From assembly GCA_023511295.1 (NCBI GenBank), contig JAIMBT010000006.1, forward strand, positions 62,001 to 126,000: 64,000 nucleotides of DNA, given 5' to 3'. The notes beneath the pieces are model-generated. The model was given only the letters and a program-made list of their open reading frames with translations, did no database searches and was not told where the DNA came from. The position numbers and the translations under genes were made by a program. Shown piece after piece: positions 8,696-16,334 of the stretch (the first letter of the stretch is position 1; every line of letters starts with the position of its first letter). Source of the stretch: Alicyclobacillus sp. (GTDB taxonomy: Bacteria > Bacillota > Bacilli > Alicyclobacillales > Alicyclobacillaceae).

Positions 8696-11029
8696 TTAGC
8701 CTGGACGGCTGCCGAGATCCAGTTCCACTGCTCGCAGCAAGACCTCGGCTGCTTCACCGACCGTCAGGTCGGCGTGGGGGTCGAATTGACCGTTCTCAAG
8801 CGGAATCACCCCCGTCGCACTCATCATCACCGCGGCACCGAGGTCCGCCGCCGGGACCGCCTTCACGTCGCGGAAGTTCACCTGAAACAGCTCCGGGTGG
8901 CTGGCTGGGCCGTCCCACCCGAGCCAATCCACCAGAAACACCGCCGCCTCCGCTCGGGTGACCGGCCGATAGGGATGGAACAGGCCGCGGTCCTGCAGCC
9001 AGCCCTGCAGGATGGCCTCGGAAATCTCGCCCGCGTACGGATTGGCGTTCTTGACGTCGGGAAACTGCGGCGTCGGCGTCGCGCTGATGTTCTCGTTGTA
9101 GGCCCGCGCCAGCCACGCGACAAACTCGGCCCGCGTGATGCGGGCGTTCGGCTGGATCAGTCCGTCCCCGGCATTCACCACCCCGTGCGCCTCCAACACG
9201 GCAATGGCTTGTTCCTGCGCCGATGCACTCGAGCCAGACGGCACCGGCGGGCTCGTCGTGAGCCCCGGCAACGGTGCGGGGACCCAGCGGCCGGTGATGG
9301 CGTCGAGCTCGCTCGAGCTATCCGCTCGCGGTTTGCCGGTGTAGACGAGCTGCGCCTGGTCTCCGTACTGTGGCACGGGCGTGCCGCCCGACGCCGGAAG
9401 TTGCGGAAGTTGGTACTGGAGCGTAACGGGCGCGGCCTGTTCAAACGCCTGCTTCGCCTGCGTCGCGGAGATAGCCTGGCTCGGCGACGGGAAGGCCTGA
9501 CTCGGGTCTGTGTTCAGGTTCAGCATCAGCGGCTGTCCCGTACCGGTATCGAGGGCGACCGTCACAAACGGCACAGCGACGCCGTTCACCAACAGGCTGT
9601 AGCTGAAGTATCGCTGATTGGACGGGCCGCCGTAGACCATCGCCGGACGAGGCACGATGGCCCCTGTCAGGTCTGGGTACACCTGCGCCACAAAGCGGTC
9701 CGCCGCGTCCTGCAGCTGACGGTCCGTCGGTGGCGTCGCAGGCGCGGCCGTCAGCGCTTGGCTGTACGCGTTGTAACTGACCATCACCCCGTCCGTGGCG
9801 TCTATCTGCACGGACGCTCCCGTATTTGTCTGGCTGTTCATGTAGTTGAGGTTCCAAACAGCGTGACCCGGCAACAGGTTGCCGTTGTTGGTCTGGAACT
9901 CCGCGTTCTGGAGGGTCCAACCTGCAGTGTCCAACCCGAGCCGCGACGCTGCTTCCGCCGCCGCCTCCGCCTGCGTCTTGGGCCCCGTTCCCGACTTGGG
10001 AAGGTCCTTCGGGCCGGACGGTTGAAGCGGCGTGTCCGTCGACGTCGACGTCGACCCGTTGACTGGTTTCAGGTCACTCCCCAGCAAGTTGCCCGTGACG
10101 GCGTCCAGAATCGGCCAAGTGGTGCCCGCCTCGGTTCCGCCCTGTCCCTCAGTCGACACACCGTAGACGAGCCGCATGGGACCTGGGCCGGTGTTGGTGT
10201 AGGACTGCTGGTACGAAAGCGACACGCGAAGCGCCGCCGCATAGTGCTGCACCGCTTGTGCCTGGCTGAGGAGGCCGCTTGGCAGGGACGGAAAACTGGC
10301 GGTCGGCCACGACAGGTCGTAGAACGCCAGTTTTCCATCGGCACGGAGGACCACCCGCACGCTGTCAAACGGCGCCGCCACCCCGTTCACCTGCCGCACG
10401 AACAAGAACGCGAATCCAGCTGAGGTCTGCTCCTCATCCTCGAGGACCAGACTGGGGTACTGCGTCGGCGCAAGTTTCTTCACCCATGCGGTCGCAGCCT
10501 GGCGCGCGGCCGCGAGCGACACCGCCTTGCCAGAAACCCAGTTGGACCCCGTGTACTGGAAGGTGAGGACCTGCCCCGTGTCGGCGTCCACAGTGGCGTG
10601 CGCGTACGGGTCACTGAGCCGGGGCCCGGCCGCATGGTCAAGGGCCATCGGCCCCCAGTCGATCTCGTACACCATCTGCTCTGGGTTCAGCGGATTCGGT
10701 TGCAGATTCGTCGTCGGCGTGGTCAAATTGTTCACCAGGTCGCCGAATCGCGCGGTGACCGTCTGCACCGCATCGTCGGACGACAACTTCACAGTGGGTG
10801 TGCCCGTGCCGCCTGGCTCTGCCTGGCCGGACAATCCGCCGGCATCGGCGGTCGCGTTCGTCGCGGCGGAAGTGCCGGTGCTGCCCGCCCCACTCCCAGT
10901 GTCCGCGTACACTGGGAGATGCCACGTGGTCAAGGCCAACCCCAATGCGCCGGCCCCCGCGAGGTACCGTCCGCGCCGGCCCGTTCTGCACGGTCGCAGA
11001 CGACCCTCTCCTGCCTGTCCTCGCTCCAT
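8696..11029 (-). CDS. Secreted SLH-domain protein with YcdB/YcdC (PepSY-like) repeats
   Basis: A 777-residue exported protein. A basic N-terminus and hydrophobic segment (LAGAGALGLALTTW) end at a likely signal peptidase site after PVYA. A Gly/Ser/Thr-rich linker follows. The central ~500 residues contain repeated segments of the YcdB/YcdC type with recurring 'DAxTGxxL' and 'W(L/V)xxLAPTxYP' motifs. The last ~170 residues carry three S-layer homology units (for example NARITRAEFVAWLARAY and RPVTRAEAAVFLVDWL). SLH units bind pyruvylated cell-wall polymer, so the protein should be displayed on the cell surface. YcdB repeats are of unknown function, possibly inhibitory like PepSY. ATG 11029 has AGGGGG upstream; 11077 is in frame but lacks a ribosome site. 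Confidence 0.85.
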   Translation of the reverse strand: MERGQAGEGRLRPCRTGRRGRYLAGAGALGLALTTWHLPVYADTGSGAGSTGTSAATNATADAGGLSGQAEPGGTGTPTVKLSSDDAVQTVTARFGDLVNNLTTPTTNLQPNPLNPEQMVYEIDWGPMALDHAAGPRLSDPYAHATVDADTGQVLTFQYTGSNWVSGKAVSLAAARQAATAWVKKLAPTQYPSLVLEDEEQTSAGFAFLFVRQVNGVAAPFDSVRVVLRADGKLAFYDLSWPTASFPSLPSGLLSQAQAVQHYAAALRVSLSYQQSYTNTGPGPMRLVYGVSTEGQGGTEAGTTWPILDAVTGNLLGSDLKPVNGSTSTSTDTPLQPSGPKDLPKSGTGPKTQAEAAAEAASRLGLDTAGWTLQNAEFQTNNGNLLPGHAVWNLNYMNSQTNTGASVQIDATDGVMVSYNAYSQALTAAPATPPTDRQLQDAADRFVAQVYPDLTGAIVPRPAMVYGGPSNQRYFSYSLLVNGVAVPFVTVALDTGTGQPLMLNLNTDPSQAFPSPSQAISATQAKQAFEQAAPVTLQYQLPQLPASGGTPVPQYGDQAQLVYTGKPRADSSSELDAITGRWVPAPLPGLTTSPPVPSGSSASAQEQAIAVLEAHGVVNAGDGLIQPNARITRAEFVAWLARAYNENISATPTPQFPDVKNANPYAGEISEAILQGWLQDRGLFHPYRPVTRAEAAVFLVDWLGWDGPASHPELFQVNFRDVKAVPAADLGAAVMMSATGVIPLENGQFDPHADLTVGEAAEVLLRAVELDLGSRPG

Positions 11030-11161
11030 CCACGCATGCCCCCTATCGGTCGGGGTGTATGACCCAAATCTCTCCATTCTATGGATTCAAGGTAGCACGA
11101 AACGCCAGGCAAATCCAGATTTTTCATCACCGTTGCGGCCGCTGGGGCCAAGCAACGCGCA

Positions 11162-11215: not shown

Positions 11216-11980
11216 CTAGGGAACCAGCAGCGTGATGCCGCCGTCCACCCGGATGGTTTGGCCGCGGATCATCTCCGCCTCCGGGGAGCACAGGAACAGC
11301 GCCAGGTTCGCCACGTCGTCCGCCGTCACCATCCGGTGGTACGGCATCTTCTCGGCGACCCGCTTCATCGTCTCCTCCATCTCCGGGAAGTGCTCCAAGG
11401 CGCCGGTCTCGACCATCCCCGCGGAGATGGTGTTGGCGTTGATGCCAAGCGGCGCCCACTCCACCGCAAAGTAGCGGACGAGCGACTCAATCGCTGCCTT
11501 CGTCGCTCCGACCGTCGTGTAGTAGGGAAACACGCGCTCGCTGCCGAACGAGGAGATGGCCAAGATGGATCCGCCCCCTGTCATCAGCTGCGCGGCGCGC
11601 TGCGCCCCGAGCAGAAAGGCCCGGACGTTCACGTTCACCGTCCAGTCCCAACCCTTTGCATCCACGTCCATCGCCTTGCGGTTGCGGCCCGATGCGGCGT
11701 TGTGCACGTACACGTCCAGCCGGCCGTAGGCATCGCGGACCTGGTCGAACAGGTAGCCGACCTTCTCCGCATCGGCCATGTTCGCCTTGACCAGGATGGC
11801 GCGCCGGCCGAGCGCCTCCACCTCCGCGGCGGTCGCACGCGCAGCGTCGCCGTTGCGGAAGTAGTGGATGACCACGTCCGCGCCTTCTTCGGCAAACCGC
11901 AACGTCAACTGCCGGCCGATGCCGCGCGAGCTGCCGGTGACGCATACGACCTTGCCCTGGTACCGTAAGTTGTCTGTCAT
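11216..11980 (-). CDS. fabL: FabL-type enoyl-thioester reductase (SDR family)
   Basis: The 254-residue SDR carries the NAD(P)-binding TGSSRGIG motif at residues 15-22. The catalytic pair is spaced Y-x6-K (YTTVGATK), as in enoyl-ACP reductases, not Y-x3-K. The flanking ISSFGS, RYFAVEW and MIRGQTIRVDGG segments resemble Bacillus subtilis FabL. FabL reduces the 2,3 double bond of enoyl-ACP with NADPH. Within this operon it may act on a specialised, ring-containing enoyl thioester. It could also be a general second enoyl reductase. ATG 11980 has GGAGGA 7-8 bases upstream. It is last in a five-gene operon, 38 bases after the zinc dehydrogenase. Confidence 0.8.
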   Translation of the reverse strand: MTDNLRYQGKVVCVTGSSRGIGRQLTLRFAEEGADVVIHYFRNGDAARATAAEVEALGRRAILVKANMADAEKVGYLFDQVRDAYGRLDVYVHNAASGRNRKAMDVDAKGWDWTVNVNVRAFLLGAQRAAQLMTGGGSILAISSFGSERVFPYYTTVGATKAAIESLVRYFAVEWAPLGINANTISAGMVETGALEHFPEMEETMKRVAEKMPYHRMVTADDVANLALFLCSPEAEMIRGQTIRVDGGITLLVP

Positions 11981-12018
11981 CGAACGGTCCTCCTACTGGA
12001 TGGAACTGAGTCTGGGAT

Positions 12019-13146
12019 TCACGGACTGCCTGGTGTGACCACGAGGCGAGCGTAAGCGGCCATCGGCGCCGTCCAGGGCGATCCGGTGCGTTCAGACGCC
12101 GCGCCCCCAGCCGGATTCAGTCTGTCGGGGAGGGCGTCGAGCGGGATTTTATGAATCTGCAGCCGCTCCAACGCCCCCCGTCCGTCTCCGCTCGCCCAGT
12201 CCACCAGCTTGGCCACGTCCCAACGTGAAGACCCAAAGCTGCCGATGAGGCGCACCCCCCTGCGAGCGAAGCCGGCCAGCGCCACGTCGGGGAGGGCGTC
12301 CGGCGAGAGGCCGACGACAGCCACCGCACCCCCGGGTCGGACGGCACCGAGGGCGAAGGCGACCGATTGTGCCGTACCCCGCGTGTCCAACACCAGATCT
12401 ACGCCGCCCTGCGACCAGCGGCGCAACACCCGCGCCAAGTTGCGGTCGCTGTCGGACGTCTGCAGGAAACCTTCGTCGGCCCCGAGCGCGCGCGCCAGTT
12501 CCAGGGCCTGCTCGTGGCTGGACACCACGCCGACGGCTTCCAGTTGCCACAGGTCGCGCATCAGGACAGCCGCCATGCCGAGGCCGCCGGATCCCATCAC
12601 GAGCAGCCGGTCCCCGGGCGCCGCGTGCGCCTGAGCCAACGCGTGGTACGGCGTGGCAAACGCGTCGACGAGCAGCGCCGCGTACGCTGGAGACAGCGTC
12701 GCGGGACTGGCTAACAGGTTTTCCACGGGCACCGTCACATACTCGGCGTAGCCGCCCGGTCGATGGTAGCCGACAATCCGCTGTTGCAGGCAGAGATGTC
12801 CCTGGCCGCGCGCGCACGCACGACAGTTTCCGCACCCGATGAAGGGGTAGACCAGCACCGCGTCGCCAGGCTCAAGGCGACCGCCGTCGGTGTCAGGGCC
12901 AAACGCTGCGACGCGCCCCGCAATCTCGTGCCCGAGCACCACCGGGAGCGCCACGCCAGGCGGCCGCGTGGCGCCGGCCACAAAGCTGCGGTCCGACCCA
13001 CAGACGCCGCACGCGTCCACGCGCACGAGCGCCTCGCCGGGACCCGGTAGGGGCACGGGGACGCGCTCCAGGCGGACCCGCCCGTCTGCCCCGCACACGG
13101 CGGCCAACATCTCGTCGGCGTGCCGTCTATCGCCTTCCCCGTTCAT
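12019..13146 (-). CDS. Zinc-dependent medium-chain alcohol dehydrogenase
   Basis: The 375-residue MDR enzyme has a catalytic zinc site (CGVCGSD and GHEIAGRV), a structural zinc site with four cysteines (CGNCRACARGQGHLC) and a Rossmann motif VMGSGGLGMA. The family oxidises secondary alcohols or reduces ketones with NAD(P). In anaerobic benzoyl-CoA metabolism a related zinc enzyme oxidises 6-hydroxycyclohex-1-ene-1-carboxyl-CoA, a precedent for ring chemistry on an acyl thioester. The start codon overlaps the stop of the acyl-CoA dehydrogenase (ATGA), indicating translational coupling. Its exact substrate cannot be read from sequence. An internal ATG at 13110 lacks a good ribosome site. Confidence 0.82.
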   Translation of the reverse strand: MNGEGDRRHADEMLAAVCGADGRVRLERVPVPLPGPGEALVRVDACGVCGSDRSFVAGATRPPGVALPVVLGHEIAGRVAAFGPDTDGGRLEPGDAVLVYPFIGCGNCRACARGQGHLCLQQRIVGYHRPGGYAEYVTVPVENLLASPATLSPAYAALLVDAFATPYHALAQAHAAPGDRLLVMGSGGLGMAAVLMRDLWQLEAVGVVSSHEQALELARALGADEGFLQTSDSDRNLARVLRRWSQGGVDLVLDTRGTAQSVAFALGAVRPGGAVAVVGLSPDALPDVALAGFARRGVRLIGSFGSSRWDVAKLVDWASGDGRGALERLQIHKIPLDALPDRLNPAGGAASERTGSPWTAPMAAYARLVVTPGSP

Positions 13147-14306
13147 CGCGCCGCGCGCTCCCGCTTGCGGGCATCGGTCAGCAGCCGTTCGGCAATCGTC
13201 ATCTTCTGCATCTCCGCCGTACCTTCCTCAAACCAGATGCTGCGTGCATCGCGGTACAAGCGTTCGACCGGGCTCCCGGCCATGTAGCCGATGCCGCCGA
13301 ACAAAGCCAGCGCGCCGTCCGTGACCGCCCCGACCATGCGGATGGCAAAACCCTTTGCCATCGACGCCTCGAGCGAGATGTCCTGCCCTGCGTCGTACTT
13401 CCTCGCGGCATCCAGGCACAGCAAACGGGCTGCCTGCACCTCCATGGCCATCTCGGCGAGCCGCATCTGGATGGCCTGACGCGCGGAGAGCGGTTTGCCG
13501 AAGGTCGTCCGGTGCCGCACGAAGTCGGTCGCTTGGTCCAGCGCCTCCGCCGCCAACCCGACAGCGCTTTGAGCGATGCAGGCGCGGCTCTGGTCGAGGA
13601 AGCCGCGCAACGCGATGTCGAACCCTTGTCCGACTTCACCGAGCACGTCCGCCTCCGGAACGGCGCAGTCCTGCAGGGTCACCACCGCGTGCGAAGACCC
13701 TTTGTCGCCCATCATGTCGGGCATCGGCGTGAGCCGCATGCCCGGGTTGCCCTTGCGAACCAGGAATGCGGTCAGCCCCGCCCGGCCGGCCTCCGCGTCC
13801 GTCTTCGCAATCACCACCAGCACGTCCGCTTCCTCGGCAAATGTGATGAGGTGCTTCTGCCCGTTCAAAATGTACCGCCCTTGCTGGTACGTGGCGGTGG
13901 TGCGCAGGTCAATCCCGGTGCCGTTCCCCGGCTCCGTCAGGGCGAACGCCACCAACGCCTCGCCGTTCGCCACCTTCGGCAACCACTCGCGCTGCTGCTC
14001 TTCGCGGCCGCAGCCGACAGTCCGCCAGATGCTGTTGTACACGTGGACCACCATGCGGATGGACCCGTGGCAGCGCGCCACCTCCTCGAGGATGGGGAAG
14101 TACAGCTGCAGCGGCAGGCCGCGGCCCCCGGCCCACTGCGGCTGGGTCAGGTTGAGAAAGCCCAACTCGCGCAACCGATGCCACAGCGCATCGGGAATCT
14201 GGCGGGTCTGTTCAATCTCGTTCGCCCACACCGCACCTTCTTCCGTGCGAAAGCGGACGACCCGTTCGCGAATCTCCTGTGCGACTTGCTCCAACGATTG
14301 CGTCAC
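13143..14306 (-). CDS. Acyl-CoA (or acyl-ACP) dehydrogenase
   Basis: The 387-residue flavoenzyme has the usual three-domain layout of acyl-CoA dehydrogenases. Signatures seen are the FAD/substrate segment FALTEPGNGTGIDL, a helical C-terminal domain with ALFGGIGYMAGSPVERLYRDAR, and the catalytic glutamate block FEEGTAEMQKM. It introduces or, run in reverse with a suitable donor, removes an alpha-beta double bond of a thioester, using FAD. GTG 14306 has GGAGG 8 bases upstream. It follows the ligase gene by 43 bases and overlaps the zinc dehydrogenase by 4. Next to an ACP and a ligase it may act on an ACP-bound acid, as in some secondary metabolite clusters. Confidence 0.87.
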   Translation of the reverse strand: MTQSLEQVAQEIRERVVRFRTEEGAVWANEIEQTRQIPDALWHRLRELGFLNLTQPQWAGGRGLPLQLYFPILEEVARCHGSIRMVVHVYNSIWRTVGCGREEQQREWLPKVANGEALVAFALTEPGNGTGIDLRTTATYQQGRYILNGQKHLITFAEEADVLVVIAKTDAEAGRAGLTAFLVRKGNPGMRLTPMPDMMGDKGSSHAVVTLQDCAVPEADVLGEVGQGFDIALRGFLDQSRACIAQSAVGLAAEALDQATDFVRHRTTFGKPLSARQAIQMRLAEMAMEVQAARLLCLDAARKYDAGQDISLEASMAKGFAIRMVGAVTDGALALFGGIGYMAGSPVERLYRDARSIWFEEGTAEMQKMTIAERLLTDARKRERAAR

Positions 14307-14349
14307 GTCCGTTGTCCTCCTACTCGGAATCTCTCTGCAGTCCGTGCAC

Positions 14350-15996
14350 TCAGCGGGCCGCTTCCACTTCCGACTCGAACCGTTTGCGCAGCTCCACCTT
14401 TTTGATCTTGCCGGAATGGGTCATCGGGAGCGCGTCCATGAACTCCAACCGATCCGGCCACTGGAACTTCGCCAGCCCCTGTTGCTCCAGGACGCGGTGT
14501 AGCTCCGACAGAGTGAACGGGGCAGCGCCTTCCTTCAGCACGACACACGCGACCGTCTTCTGGCCGAGGGTCTTGTCCGGCATGCCGACGATAGCGACGG
14601 TCTCCACGGCCGGGTGCGCCGAGCAGGCGTCCTCCACGCTCTTCGGGTCAATCTTCGTGCCGCCGCGGTTGATGATGTCGTCCATCCGGCCCATAAAGAT
14701 GTAGCGCCCGTCCTCGTCTTGGCGAAACAGGTCGCCGGAGTGGAACCAGCCGTCCGCATCCCACTGCTTGGCGGCCGCCGTGGGGTTGCCGTAGTAGCCG
14801 GCGCTGAAGTTGGGGCCGCGGCTCCACATCTCGCCGGGCTCGCCGGGTTGCACGGGGTGGCCGTCCTCGTCGACGAGGATGACCTCCGTACCGGGGATGG
14901 CGTGGCCGACCGTGGTGCTCAGTTTTTCAACGGGATCTTCCGGGCGGGTGCCGGTTGCGAGGAACCCTTCCGTCCAGCCGAACACCCCGCCAATCTTCCA
15001 GCCGGTATCGGCCTGCAACTGCCGCAACACCGTCGCAGCGACGGGGGCGCCGGCGTAGAAGAGGATGCGCACCGAGTCCGTGCGAACCTTCTTGAGGTCT
15101 GCGCTCTGGGCGAGGTGGACGACATGCGGCGGGGCACCGACCAAGTACGACGGGCGCTCGTCCTCAATCCAGCGCAGCACGCGGCCGGCCGAGAAGCGGT
15201 CCATCAGCAGCATGCGGCCACCGCTGACCACCGGCATCGTGACGCCGATGAGCATACCGGTCTGGTGGCAGATGGGCGCCACGTCGAGCGTGGCTTCGCC
15301 TGCCTGAGTTCCATACAACTTCGAGTACGAGCGGGCTGCCCACAGGTAGTTGGCGTGCAGTTGCACCACGCCCTTCGGAGAGCCGGTCGTGCCGGAGGTG
15401 AACACCATCACGAACGGATCAAGCGGCTCTGGCCGGTTGGCCGCGGCGTCCTCCGGGCTCAGCCTGCGGCCTGCGCTGCGCACCTGCTCGAAGGGGATGG
15501 CTTCAGCGTGGACCTGGGAGGCCCCCTGCACGAACACGGTTTGCAACTGCGGCAGCTCTGCCTTCAACTCGAGGGCCGTCTGGACCAGCGGCTGCCCGCG
15601 GTAGCTCTCCGCGACCACCATGGCCTTTGCGCCGGATTGGTTCAAGCTGTAGGCCACCCCCTGGCGGCCGAGATCAATCTGAAGCAACACAGCTGCGGCG
15701 CCGATGCGCGCCGCGCCAAACAACGCCACGAGGTAGTCGAGTGAGGTCGGTAACTGAATGGCCACCTTGTCGCCCTTCCGCACGCCCATCGCGACCAAGG
15801 CCGCGGCGAAGGCCTCCGCTTCGTCCCACAGCGCGCGGTAGCTCAAGGTGCGCGACTCGTCGCGGTGAACCAGGTCACCGAAGGTGCGGACGTTGTGCTC
15901 CATCACGTCGACGAAGGTGTCGCGCTGCCAGATGCCCGCTTCGAAGTACGCGTTGGCGCGCGCCTCCGTCAACACCATGCCGGGGAAACGGTTCAC
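14350..15996 (-). CDS. Acyl-adenylating ligase (AMP-forming; aryl/cyclic acid:ACP or CoA ligase)
   Basis: The 548-residue ANL-superfamily enzyme has the ATP-loop FTSGTTGSPKG, the A5-like GVFGWTEGF, the hinge motif GRMDDIINRGGTKI and the catalytic lysine in THSGKIKK. The N-terminal YFEAGIWQRDTFVDV layout resembles DhbE-type aryl-acid adenylating enzymes and cyclohexanecarboxylate ligases more than long-chain fatty acid ligases. It would adenylate a carboxylic acid and transfer it to a phosphopantetheine thiol. The preceding ACP gene overlaps its GTG start by 4 bases (GTGA), so loading that ACP is the obvious proposal. GGGGGGAG precedes the start. Substrate ring structure is inferred only from context. 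Confidence 0.85.
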   Translation of the reverse strand: MNRFPGMVLTEARANAYFEAGIWQRDTFVDVMEHNVRTFGDLVHRDESRTLSYRALWDEAEAFAAALVAMGVRKGDKVAIQLPTSLDYLVALFGAARIGAAAVLLQIDLGRQGVAYSLNQSGAKAMVVAESYRGQPLVQTALELKAELPQLQTVFVQGASQVHAEAIPFEQVRSAGRRLSPEDAAANRPEPLDPFVMVFTSGTTGSPKGVVQLHANYLWAARSYSKLYGTQAGEATLDVAPICHQTGMLIGVTMPVVSGGRMLLMDRFSAGRVLRWIEDERPSYLVGAPPHVVHLAQSADLKKVRTDSVRILFYAGAPVAATVLRQLQADTGWKIGGVFGWTEGFLATGTRPEDPVEKLSTTVGHAIPGTEVILVDEDGHPVQPGEPGEMWSRGPNFSAGYYGNPTAAAKQWDADGWFHSGDLFRQDEDGRYIFMGRMDDIINRGGTKIDPKSVEDACSAHPAVETVAIVGMPDKTLGQKTVACVVLKEGAAPFTLSELHRVLEQQGLAKFQWPDRLEFMDALPMTHSGKIKKVELRKRFESEVEAAR

Positions 15997-16265
15997 GCTG
16001 CTCCCCCCGCCAAGCGTTGCTCGAGGTAGCTCTCAATCCCGCCGACCGTCGTGAGCTGGCTGAAGTCCGCATCGGAGATCTCGATGTCGAAGTTGTCCTC
16101 AAGGGCGGTCACCAGTTCCGTCAAATCCAGCGAATCGGCGCCGAGATCATTCACCACGTGCTGCGTCGGCTGAATCTCGTCCGGATTCACCTGCAGGTAG
16201 TCCCCCAAGATCTGGCGCACGCGCGCCTCAATCGTCTTTCGATCCAACGTCTGATTCTCTGCCAC
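15993..16265 (-). CDS. Dedicated acyl carrier protein
   Basis: The 90-residue acidic protein has the phosphopantetheine attachment motif LGADSLDLTEL with Ser45, flanked by the helices expected of an ACP. It differs from the housekeeping AcpP by its location: it heads an operon with an adenylating ligase, two dehydrogenases and an enoyl reductase instead of sitting in the fab genes. GTG 16265 lies 8 bases after GGAGG; an upstream in-frame ATG at 16295 lacks one. Its stop overlaps the ligase start. Expression is probably driven by the extended -10 promoter at 16326-16334 and repressed at the FapR-like site. It is expected to carry the acid activated by the ligase. Confidence 0.9.
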   Translation of the reverse strand: MAENQTLDRKTIEARVRQILGDYLQVNPDEIQPTQHVVNDLGADSLDLTELVTALEDNFDIEISDADFSQLTTVGGIESYLEQRLAGGAA

Positions 16266-16303
16266 CGTTTCAACCTCCAACCGATGAATTGGCACGACAA
16301 GAA

Positions 16304-16320
16304 ATAGTACCAGCTACTAA
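16304..16320. promoter_or_regulatory. FapR-like operator at the acp operon start site
   Basis: ATAGTACCAGCTACTAA contains the inverted repeat TAGTA-CCAGC-TACTA. It closely resembles the FapR operator of Bacillus and Staphylococcus as I remember it (TTAGTACC-type palindrome ending in TACTAA). It lies immediately downstream of the -10 box, covering the expected start of transcription, where a repressor would block initiation. FapR represses fatty acid and phospholipid synthesis genes and is released by malonyl-CoA. The match was made by eye. Confidence 0.65.
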
Positions 16321-16325
16321 AAATC

Positions 16326-16334
16326 ATTATACCA
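16326..16334 (-). promoter_or_regulatory. Extended -10 promoter of the acp-ligase operon
   Basis: On the minus strand TGGTATAAT combines a perfect TATAAT (16326-16331) with a TGn extension. No good -35 box is seen 17 bases upstream, which is common for extended -10 promoters. It lies in the 136-base gap between the Fsr-type exporter and acp. Confidence 0.65.

Follow-up and report, generated by a model that had tools for sequence, protein, structure and literature searches.

A candidate ACP-side starter module for omega-alicyclic fatty acids under a FapR-type operator in Alicyclobacillus sp.

A shikimate origin of the omega-cyclohexyl fatty acids of Alicyclobacillus has been recognised since 1972, and an operon of an Alicyclobacillus sp. 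raises the question of how such ring starters reach fatty acid synthesis. The operon lies in a stretch of 64,000 nucleotides (contig JAIMBT010000006.1, positions 62,001–126,000; hereafter the window) and encodes an acyl carrier protein (ACP), an acid ligase (LIG), an acyl-CoA dehydrogenase family flavoenzyme (ACAD), a zinc-dependent alcohol dehydrogenase (ZnDH) and FabL, a reductase of the short-chain dehydrogenase/reductase (SDR) family, behind a promoter with a palindrome of the type bound by FapR. Does this operon build the ring starter, as the initial annotation proposed, or does it act on a starter made elsewhere? The reading that we put forward, with belief and doubt about evenly balanced, is that it forms the ACP-side module, for loading and processing, of a system under FapR that supplies starters for omega-alicyclic fatty acids. 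We refer to the operon as module 1 and to a second locus of the same genome as module 2, LIG2 and ACAD2 being the ligase and dehydrogenase of the latter.

The five minus-strand genes, the promoter and the palindrome were all found as first described, by open reading frame calling, Pfam and NCBIfam searches and direct reading, and profile matches back the gene types of all five reading frames (Table 1). Adjacent genes overlap by 4 bases at the ACP/LIG and ACAD/ZnDH junctions, the remaining gaps being of 43 and 38 bases. The ACP start is likely to be the GTG at 16265, eight bases 3′ of a GGAGG ribosome-binding site at 16274–16278. As a further ACP gene adjoins fabG in the fapR-fabH-fabG operon for fatty acid synthesis (FAS), on contig C36 of the same genome, the ACP of the five-gene operon is an extra, dedicated copy.

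When FabL was used as a query against its own genome, a second SDR was found in the same contig, 61–67 kb off, and module 2 surrounds it. The 2,4-dienoyl-CoA-reductase-like FMN enzyme encoded there (DCR) has a 2,4-dienoyl-CoA reductase, 1ps9, as its nearest solved structure, and the top NCBIfam match of LIG2 is cyclohexanecarboxylate-CoA ligase (467 bits, under the cut-off of 792). In phoslactomycin producers, genes for ChcA, an NADH:FMN oxidoreductase, an AMP ligase and an acyl-CoA dehydrogenase belong to the cyclohexanecarboxyl-CoA (CHC-CoA) cassette (PMC5852498). Family searches against that list found the published set complete by gene type in module 2 (LIG2, ACAD2, DCR and a ChcA-like SDR), whereas the window operon is without an FMN oxidoreductase and its SDR is FabL-type. 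Judged by gene type, the window operon itself is not the known CHC cassette, and module 2 is that gene set; the idea that the five genes alone build the ring is not borne out, the known ring-making set being a separate locus. No near-match of the five-gene operon was found in a plasmid search, and a tblastn search of plasmids for the Streptomyces CHC cassette returned single aliA-like and aroA homologues only, with no full cassette.

Module 2 also encodes a paralogue of 5-enolpyruvylshikimate-3-phosphate synthase (EPSPS). It was ruled out as a plain aroA, the genome having a separate canonical one. Four such paralogues from two Bacilli families share changes in conserved motifs of the active-site region, where Lys-Tyr replaces Lys-Ser and Gln replaces Arg; these may reflect altered substrate use. 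The DCR gene of the draft genome of A. sendaiensis (G013:C7:60097-62124) contains one in-frame TGA stop, which may be a sequencing error or mark a pseudogene.

The two modules, about 61 kb apart here, form one cluster in 15/15 genomes of genus g2 (Alicyclobacillus), one of whose contigs ends within DCR, and in two Scopulibacillus. The fused clusters contain the CHC-type cassette and a 3-deoxy-D-arabino-heptulosonate 7-phosphate (DAHP) synthase, and some of them the EPSPS paralogue; the composite clusters of A. montanus and of Alicyclobacillus sp. SP_1 hold both SDRs. It is this fusion, to a cassette that agrees with the CHC-CoA set as published, that bears out the link to omega-alicyclic starters drawn in the initial annotation. 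Among 41 genomes of the family, 23 have both modules, six the ligase without DCR, one DCR without the ligase, and 11 neither, so that the presence of one module is correlated with that of the other (Fisher p 4e-5, with no correction for relatedness); in the sister family, modules were found in 0/18 genomes. The sole case seen of a DCR homologue (70%) without the module-1 ligase is a metagenome-assembled genome (MAG), G029, which is 94% complete.

Is the operon under FapR control? Since TGGTATAAT reads from 16334 to 16326 on the minus strand, the palindrome at 16304–16320 sits on the expected start site. The palindrome is the sole place in the 3.43-Mb genome that fits the pattern TTAGTACCNNNTACTAA with at most two mismatches; with the pattern reversed as a control, 6 places fitted. 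The exact-consensus match alone is therefore not decisive, and the operator case rests on position and recurrence. The consensus scan was dropped as sole proof, the control having matched more often, and an independently trained matrix was used instead, built from fapR promoters of other genomes of the family together with B. subtilis fapO (PMC12281612). In the window, this matrix gave one match of at least 11 bits, the palindrome itself, at 16.5 bits, close to the 16.7 bits of the box at the genome's own fapR promoter; at a threshold of at least 14.5 bits there were 0 matches in 40 simulated windows. FapR is encoded in the genome (NF003359, 220 bits against a cut-off of 183). Boxes of 13.7–21.6 bits were found at the fapR promoters of 21/30 fapR loci, seven of the 21 having fed the matrix and being scored leave-one-out.

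The box also recurs at the promoters of orthologous clusters. All 43 matches of at least 14.5 bits in 565 kb of related cluster loci (43/43) fall in promoters of the cluster, and no strong match was found in 914 kb of unrelated loci. The divergent LIG2/DCR promoter has a box in 14 testable g2 genomes, in A. montanus and in A. mengziensis; the ACP promoter has one in A. contaminans and in one Alicyclobacillaceae MAG. Matrix scores, an encoded FapR and the recurrence of the box at cluster promoters together make the predicted FapR control of the operon, first proposed from the palindrome, well supported at the level of sequence. At the EPSPS/DCR promoter of module 2 (L070:13554-13596) three FapR-like boxes overlap, 13 bp apart; this spacing recurs elsewhere among the clusters and might accommodate a pair of FapR dimers on one DNA.

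FapR control does not by itself imply ring chemistry, and the FabL gene is where this matters. FabL exceeds its curated NCBIfam cut-off (352 against 328 bits), and the closest solved structure, 3oic, is an enoyl-ACP reductase. No FabI was found in a whole-genome search and no FabK over cut-off (best FabK-like match 152 against 453 bits), FabV not having been searched; apart from the ChcA-like SDR, the operon FabL is the only enzyme of the FabI/FabL class found in the genome. It is thus probably the general, and likely the only, enoyl-ACP reductase of the strain, and need not act on the ring. Ring reduction by FabL, which the initial annotation had proposed, was set aside as the default once no FabI turned up. 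FabI is likewise lost in several other genomes of the family.

A general enoyl-ACP reductase would by itself explain the FapR control. The operon could then be a general accessory to type II fatty acid synthesis (FASII), in which FabL is housekeeping, ACP and ligase are an acyl-ACP synthetase pair salvaging or recycling short, branched or ring acids for FASII, and no ring chemistry takes place. We consider this unlikely, yet a serious contender: besides the enoyl reductase inventory just given, FapR over a fab gene is expected, and ACP-LIG-FabL or ACP-LIG alone occurs in non-ring species. It leaves unexplained, however, why ACAD and ZnDH are there, why producers have the operon fused with module 2, and why shikimate-pathway genes are neighbours in several lineages.

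The ligase and its neighbours bear on what the ACP may carry. The nearest solved structures of LIG are the 2,3-dihydroxybenzoate- and salicylate-AMP ligases of DhbE/EntE type, which load aryl acids on carrier proteins; LIG itself scores below the cut-off of the aryl-AMP ligase family (TIGR02275, 275 against 724 bits). Its orthologues are 55–73% identical, and the majority adjoin an ACP. An HQTG motif in the acid-pocket region is common to LIG and LIG2. ACAD, which is about 70% conserved from one module-1 copy to another and shares about 42% identity with ACAD2, matches best the acryloyl-CoA reductase AcrC (280 bits) and cyclohexane-1-carbonyl-CoA dehydrogenase (219 bits) in NCBIfam, and ZnDH matches best scyllo-inosose 3-dehydrogenase (144 bits), all of them under cut-off. 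A second FabF (FabF2), distinct from the FabF of the FAS operon, is unlinked here, on contig C18. It adjoins ACP-LIG or FabL in A. tolerans, A. macrosporangiidus, Pullulanibacillus, Scopulibacillus, Sporolactobacillus and Cohnella, and is divergent from FabL in Alicyclobacillus, where boxes scoring about 15 bits occur at the FabF2/FabL promoter in the acidocaldarius and hesperidum groups. The A. macrosporangiidus group (L067, L068, L069) has ACP-LIG-FabL, a second ligase and FabF2, without ACAD or ZnDH; A. tolerans BL-1 (L110) has a full module 1 and FabF2, and its genome is without DCR or a ChcA-like SDR.

Module 1 adjoins a TrpEG-fusion anthranilate synthase in Sporolactobacillus sp. THM7-7, Pullulanibacillus camelliae and P. 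pueri, which suggests another ring acid for module 1 in those organisms. An operon with little connection to the CHC pathway, making some other ring starter from shikimate or chorismate, for instance an aryl or dihydroaryl acid, would fit these neighbours, the structural closeness of LIG to DhbE and salicylate-AMP ligases and the presence of module 1 without module 2. For the window operon we regard it as distinctly improbable: no chorismate-using gene was seen beside it, and in the genus the module is commonly found fused with the CHC-type cassette. Taken together, the aryl-loading ligase structures, the HQTG motif and the FabF2 and TrpEG neighbours suggest that a private ACP takes a shikimate-derived ring acid and then hands it over to a private condensing enzyme.

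The starter-module model builds on observed gene content, co-clustering, co-occurrence and operator conservation. Module 2 would make the cyclohexane ring acid from shikimate, as the Streptomyces CHC-CoA cassette does. The module-1 ligase would charge the dedicated ACP with the ring acid or with a precursor that is only partly reduced, ACAD and ZnDH would complete the redox steps on the ACP thioester, and a FabF-type synthase (FabF2) together with FabL would take the ring acyl-ACP into chain elongation. At low malonyl-CoA FapR would repress the system, so that the supply of ring starters would follow that of extenders. The acid loaded, ACP rather than CoA as acceptor, the order of the reactions and FapR binding are the parts that we infer. 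A bolder version, which we advance tentatively and hold to be rather improbable, is a FabH-independent start of fatty acid synthesis, in which the ligase would load a shikimate-derived ring acid on the private ACP for condensation by FabF2, with ring making, loading and elongation in one FapR/malonyl-CoA regulon.

We compared the two modules with fatty acid phenotypes. A review table lists cyclohexane acids in A. acidiphilus, A. fastidiosus, A. hesperidum, A. sacchari, A. sendaiensis and A. tolerans, cycloheptane acids in A. tengchongensis, and no ring acids in A. contaminans, A. macrosporangiidus and A. ferrooxydans (PMC5023266). The first five cyclohexane producers all have both modules, so that module 2 is present in 5/6 of those listed. 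The species without ring acids are all without module 2 (3/3): A. contaminans has ACP-LIG only, A. macrosporangiidus ACP-LIG-FabL-ligase, and A. ferrooxydans module 1 only. The expectation that the five-gene order would mark ring producers held only in part: module 2 tracks them better than module 1, which extends beyond them.

Several observations weigh against a ring-starter role of the operon. A. tolerans is a listed cyclohexane producer, yet the BL-1 genome has module 1 only; A. tengchongensis is listed for cycloheptane acids but has both modules; and the association between module 2 and phenotype in the named set is not significant alone (p 0.19, n = 10). Cycloheptyl acids are thought to derive from phenylacetate catabolism (PMC7497051), and therefore species with cycloheptane acids only need not carry the two-module set. 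Module 1 is whole in A. ferrooxydans, without ring fatty acids, and in Pullulanibacillus, beside no module-2 genes, and can thus serve another purpose. The module-2 promoter of this genome has weak overlapping boxes only (11.2–11.9 bits). Finally, FabL may belong to the operon for no other reason than its role as enoyl reductase of FASII; as it alone could account for FapR control, it is the fused clusters of relatives on which the ring link rests.

Comparison with known systems locates what is particular here. Module 2 resembles in gene types the Streptomyces CHC-CoA cassette of phoslactomycin and ansatrienin (plmJK, plmL, plmM, chcA; ansJ-M/chcA), a set which we take to include an EPSPS-like gene. 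The window operon differs from that cassette in having no FMN oxidoreductase and in adding ACP, ZnDH and FabL; the context here is membrane lipid rather than polyketide, with FapR boxes and a DAHP synthase in the cluster. With the FapR regulon of Bacillus and Staphylococcus it shares the presence of fapR, a 17-bp box at the start site and a box at the fapR promoter, but the target here is a starter-supply or ring-starter cluster, and to our knowledge starter genes are not among known fap targets. Carrier-protein-tethered acid oxidation (prolyl-PCP dehydrogenase, DhbE/EntE aryl loading) has the same logic of AMP ligase, free carrier protein and acyl-CoA dehydrogenase; here the family scores are under cut-off (NF045652, TIGR02275), and ZnDH, FabL and the FapR box are added. 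An operon for the breakdown of cyclohexanecarboxylate or a similar acid, of the bad-ali type (AliA/AliB, regulator BadR; PMC9795900), is very improbable: ligase and dehydrogenase are of related families and show secondary similarity to CHC-CoA ligases and cyclohexanecarboxyl-CoA dehydrogenases, but operon and module 2, to which the search was confined, lack hydratase, 2-hydroxyacyl dehydrogenase and ring hydrolase of BadK/BadH/BadI kind, the operon is ACP-linked with a regulator of another type (a FapR box), and the linked module has a DAHP synthase.

Table 1. Features of the operon, its promoter, module 2 and the anthranilate synthase neighbours of module 1 in other genera.
Feature	Position	Strand	Basis or content
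Acyl carrier protein (ACP)	15993-16295	minus	PF00550, NF002148 over cut-off; DSL motif for phosphopantetheine
AMP-dependent acid ligase (LIG)	14350-15996	minus	PF00501/PF13193
Acyl-CoA dehydrogenase family flavoenzyme (ACAD)	13143-14306	minus	PF00441/PF02770/PF02771
Zinc-dependent medium-chain alcohol dehydrogenase (ZnDH)	12019-13146	minus	PF08240/PF00107
FabL-type enoyl-ACP reductase (SDR)	11216-11980	minus	NF005975 over curated cut-off
Extended -10 element TGGTATAAT	16326-16334	minus	direct sequence reading
FapR-type operator, 17-bp palindrome ATAGTACCAGCTACTAA	16304-16320	minus	matrix 16.5 bits; covers predicted transcription start
Module 2 (locus L070, same contig as window, ~61 kb from operon)	C35:125000-144900		thioesterase, SDR, DAHP synthase, ACAD2, LIG2, EPSPS paralogue; divergent: DCR and SDR
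TrpEG-fusion anthranilate synthase	L123:14355-16541		
TrpEG-fusion anthranilate synthase	L125:14323-16524		
TrpEG-fusion anthranilate synthase	L136:3257-5362		

Downstream of the operon, at 8696–11077 on the minus strand, lies an unrelated gene, whose 793-aa product combines YcdB/YcdC repeats with an S-layer homology domain.

The chemistry of CHC formation from shikimate and the Streptomyces genes for it are already known. No paper naming the omega-cyclohexyl genes of Alicyclobacillus was found in the open literature, subscription literature not having been searched; neither the companion module on the ACP side nor its control by FapR appears to have been described before. What is now offered is a concrete gene set of two modules and about 11–13 genes, with a regulator whose operators can be tested and named species in which the two modules are separated. 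How the ring starter is made, how it is fed into FASII and how its supply is matched to malonyl-CoA in a membrane adapted to acid and heat thereby becomes a directly testable question.

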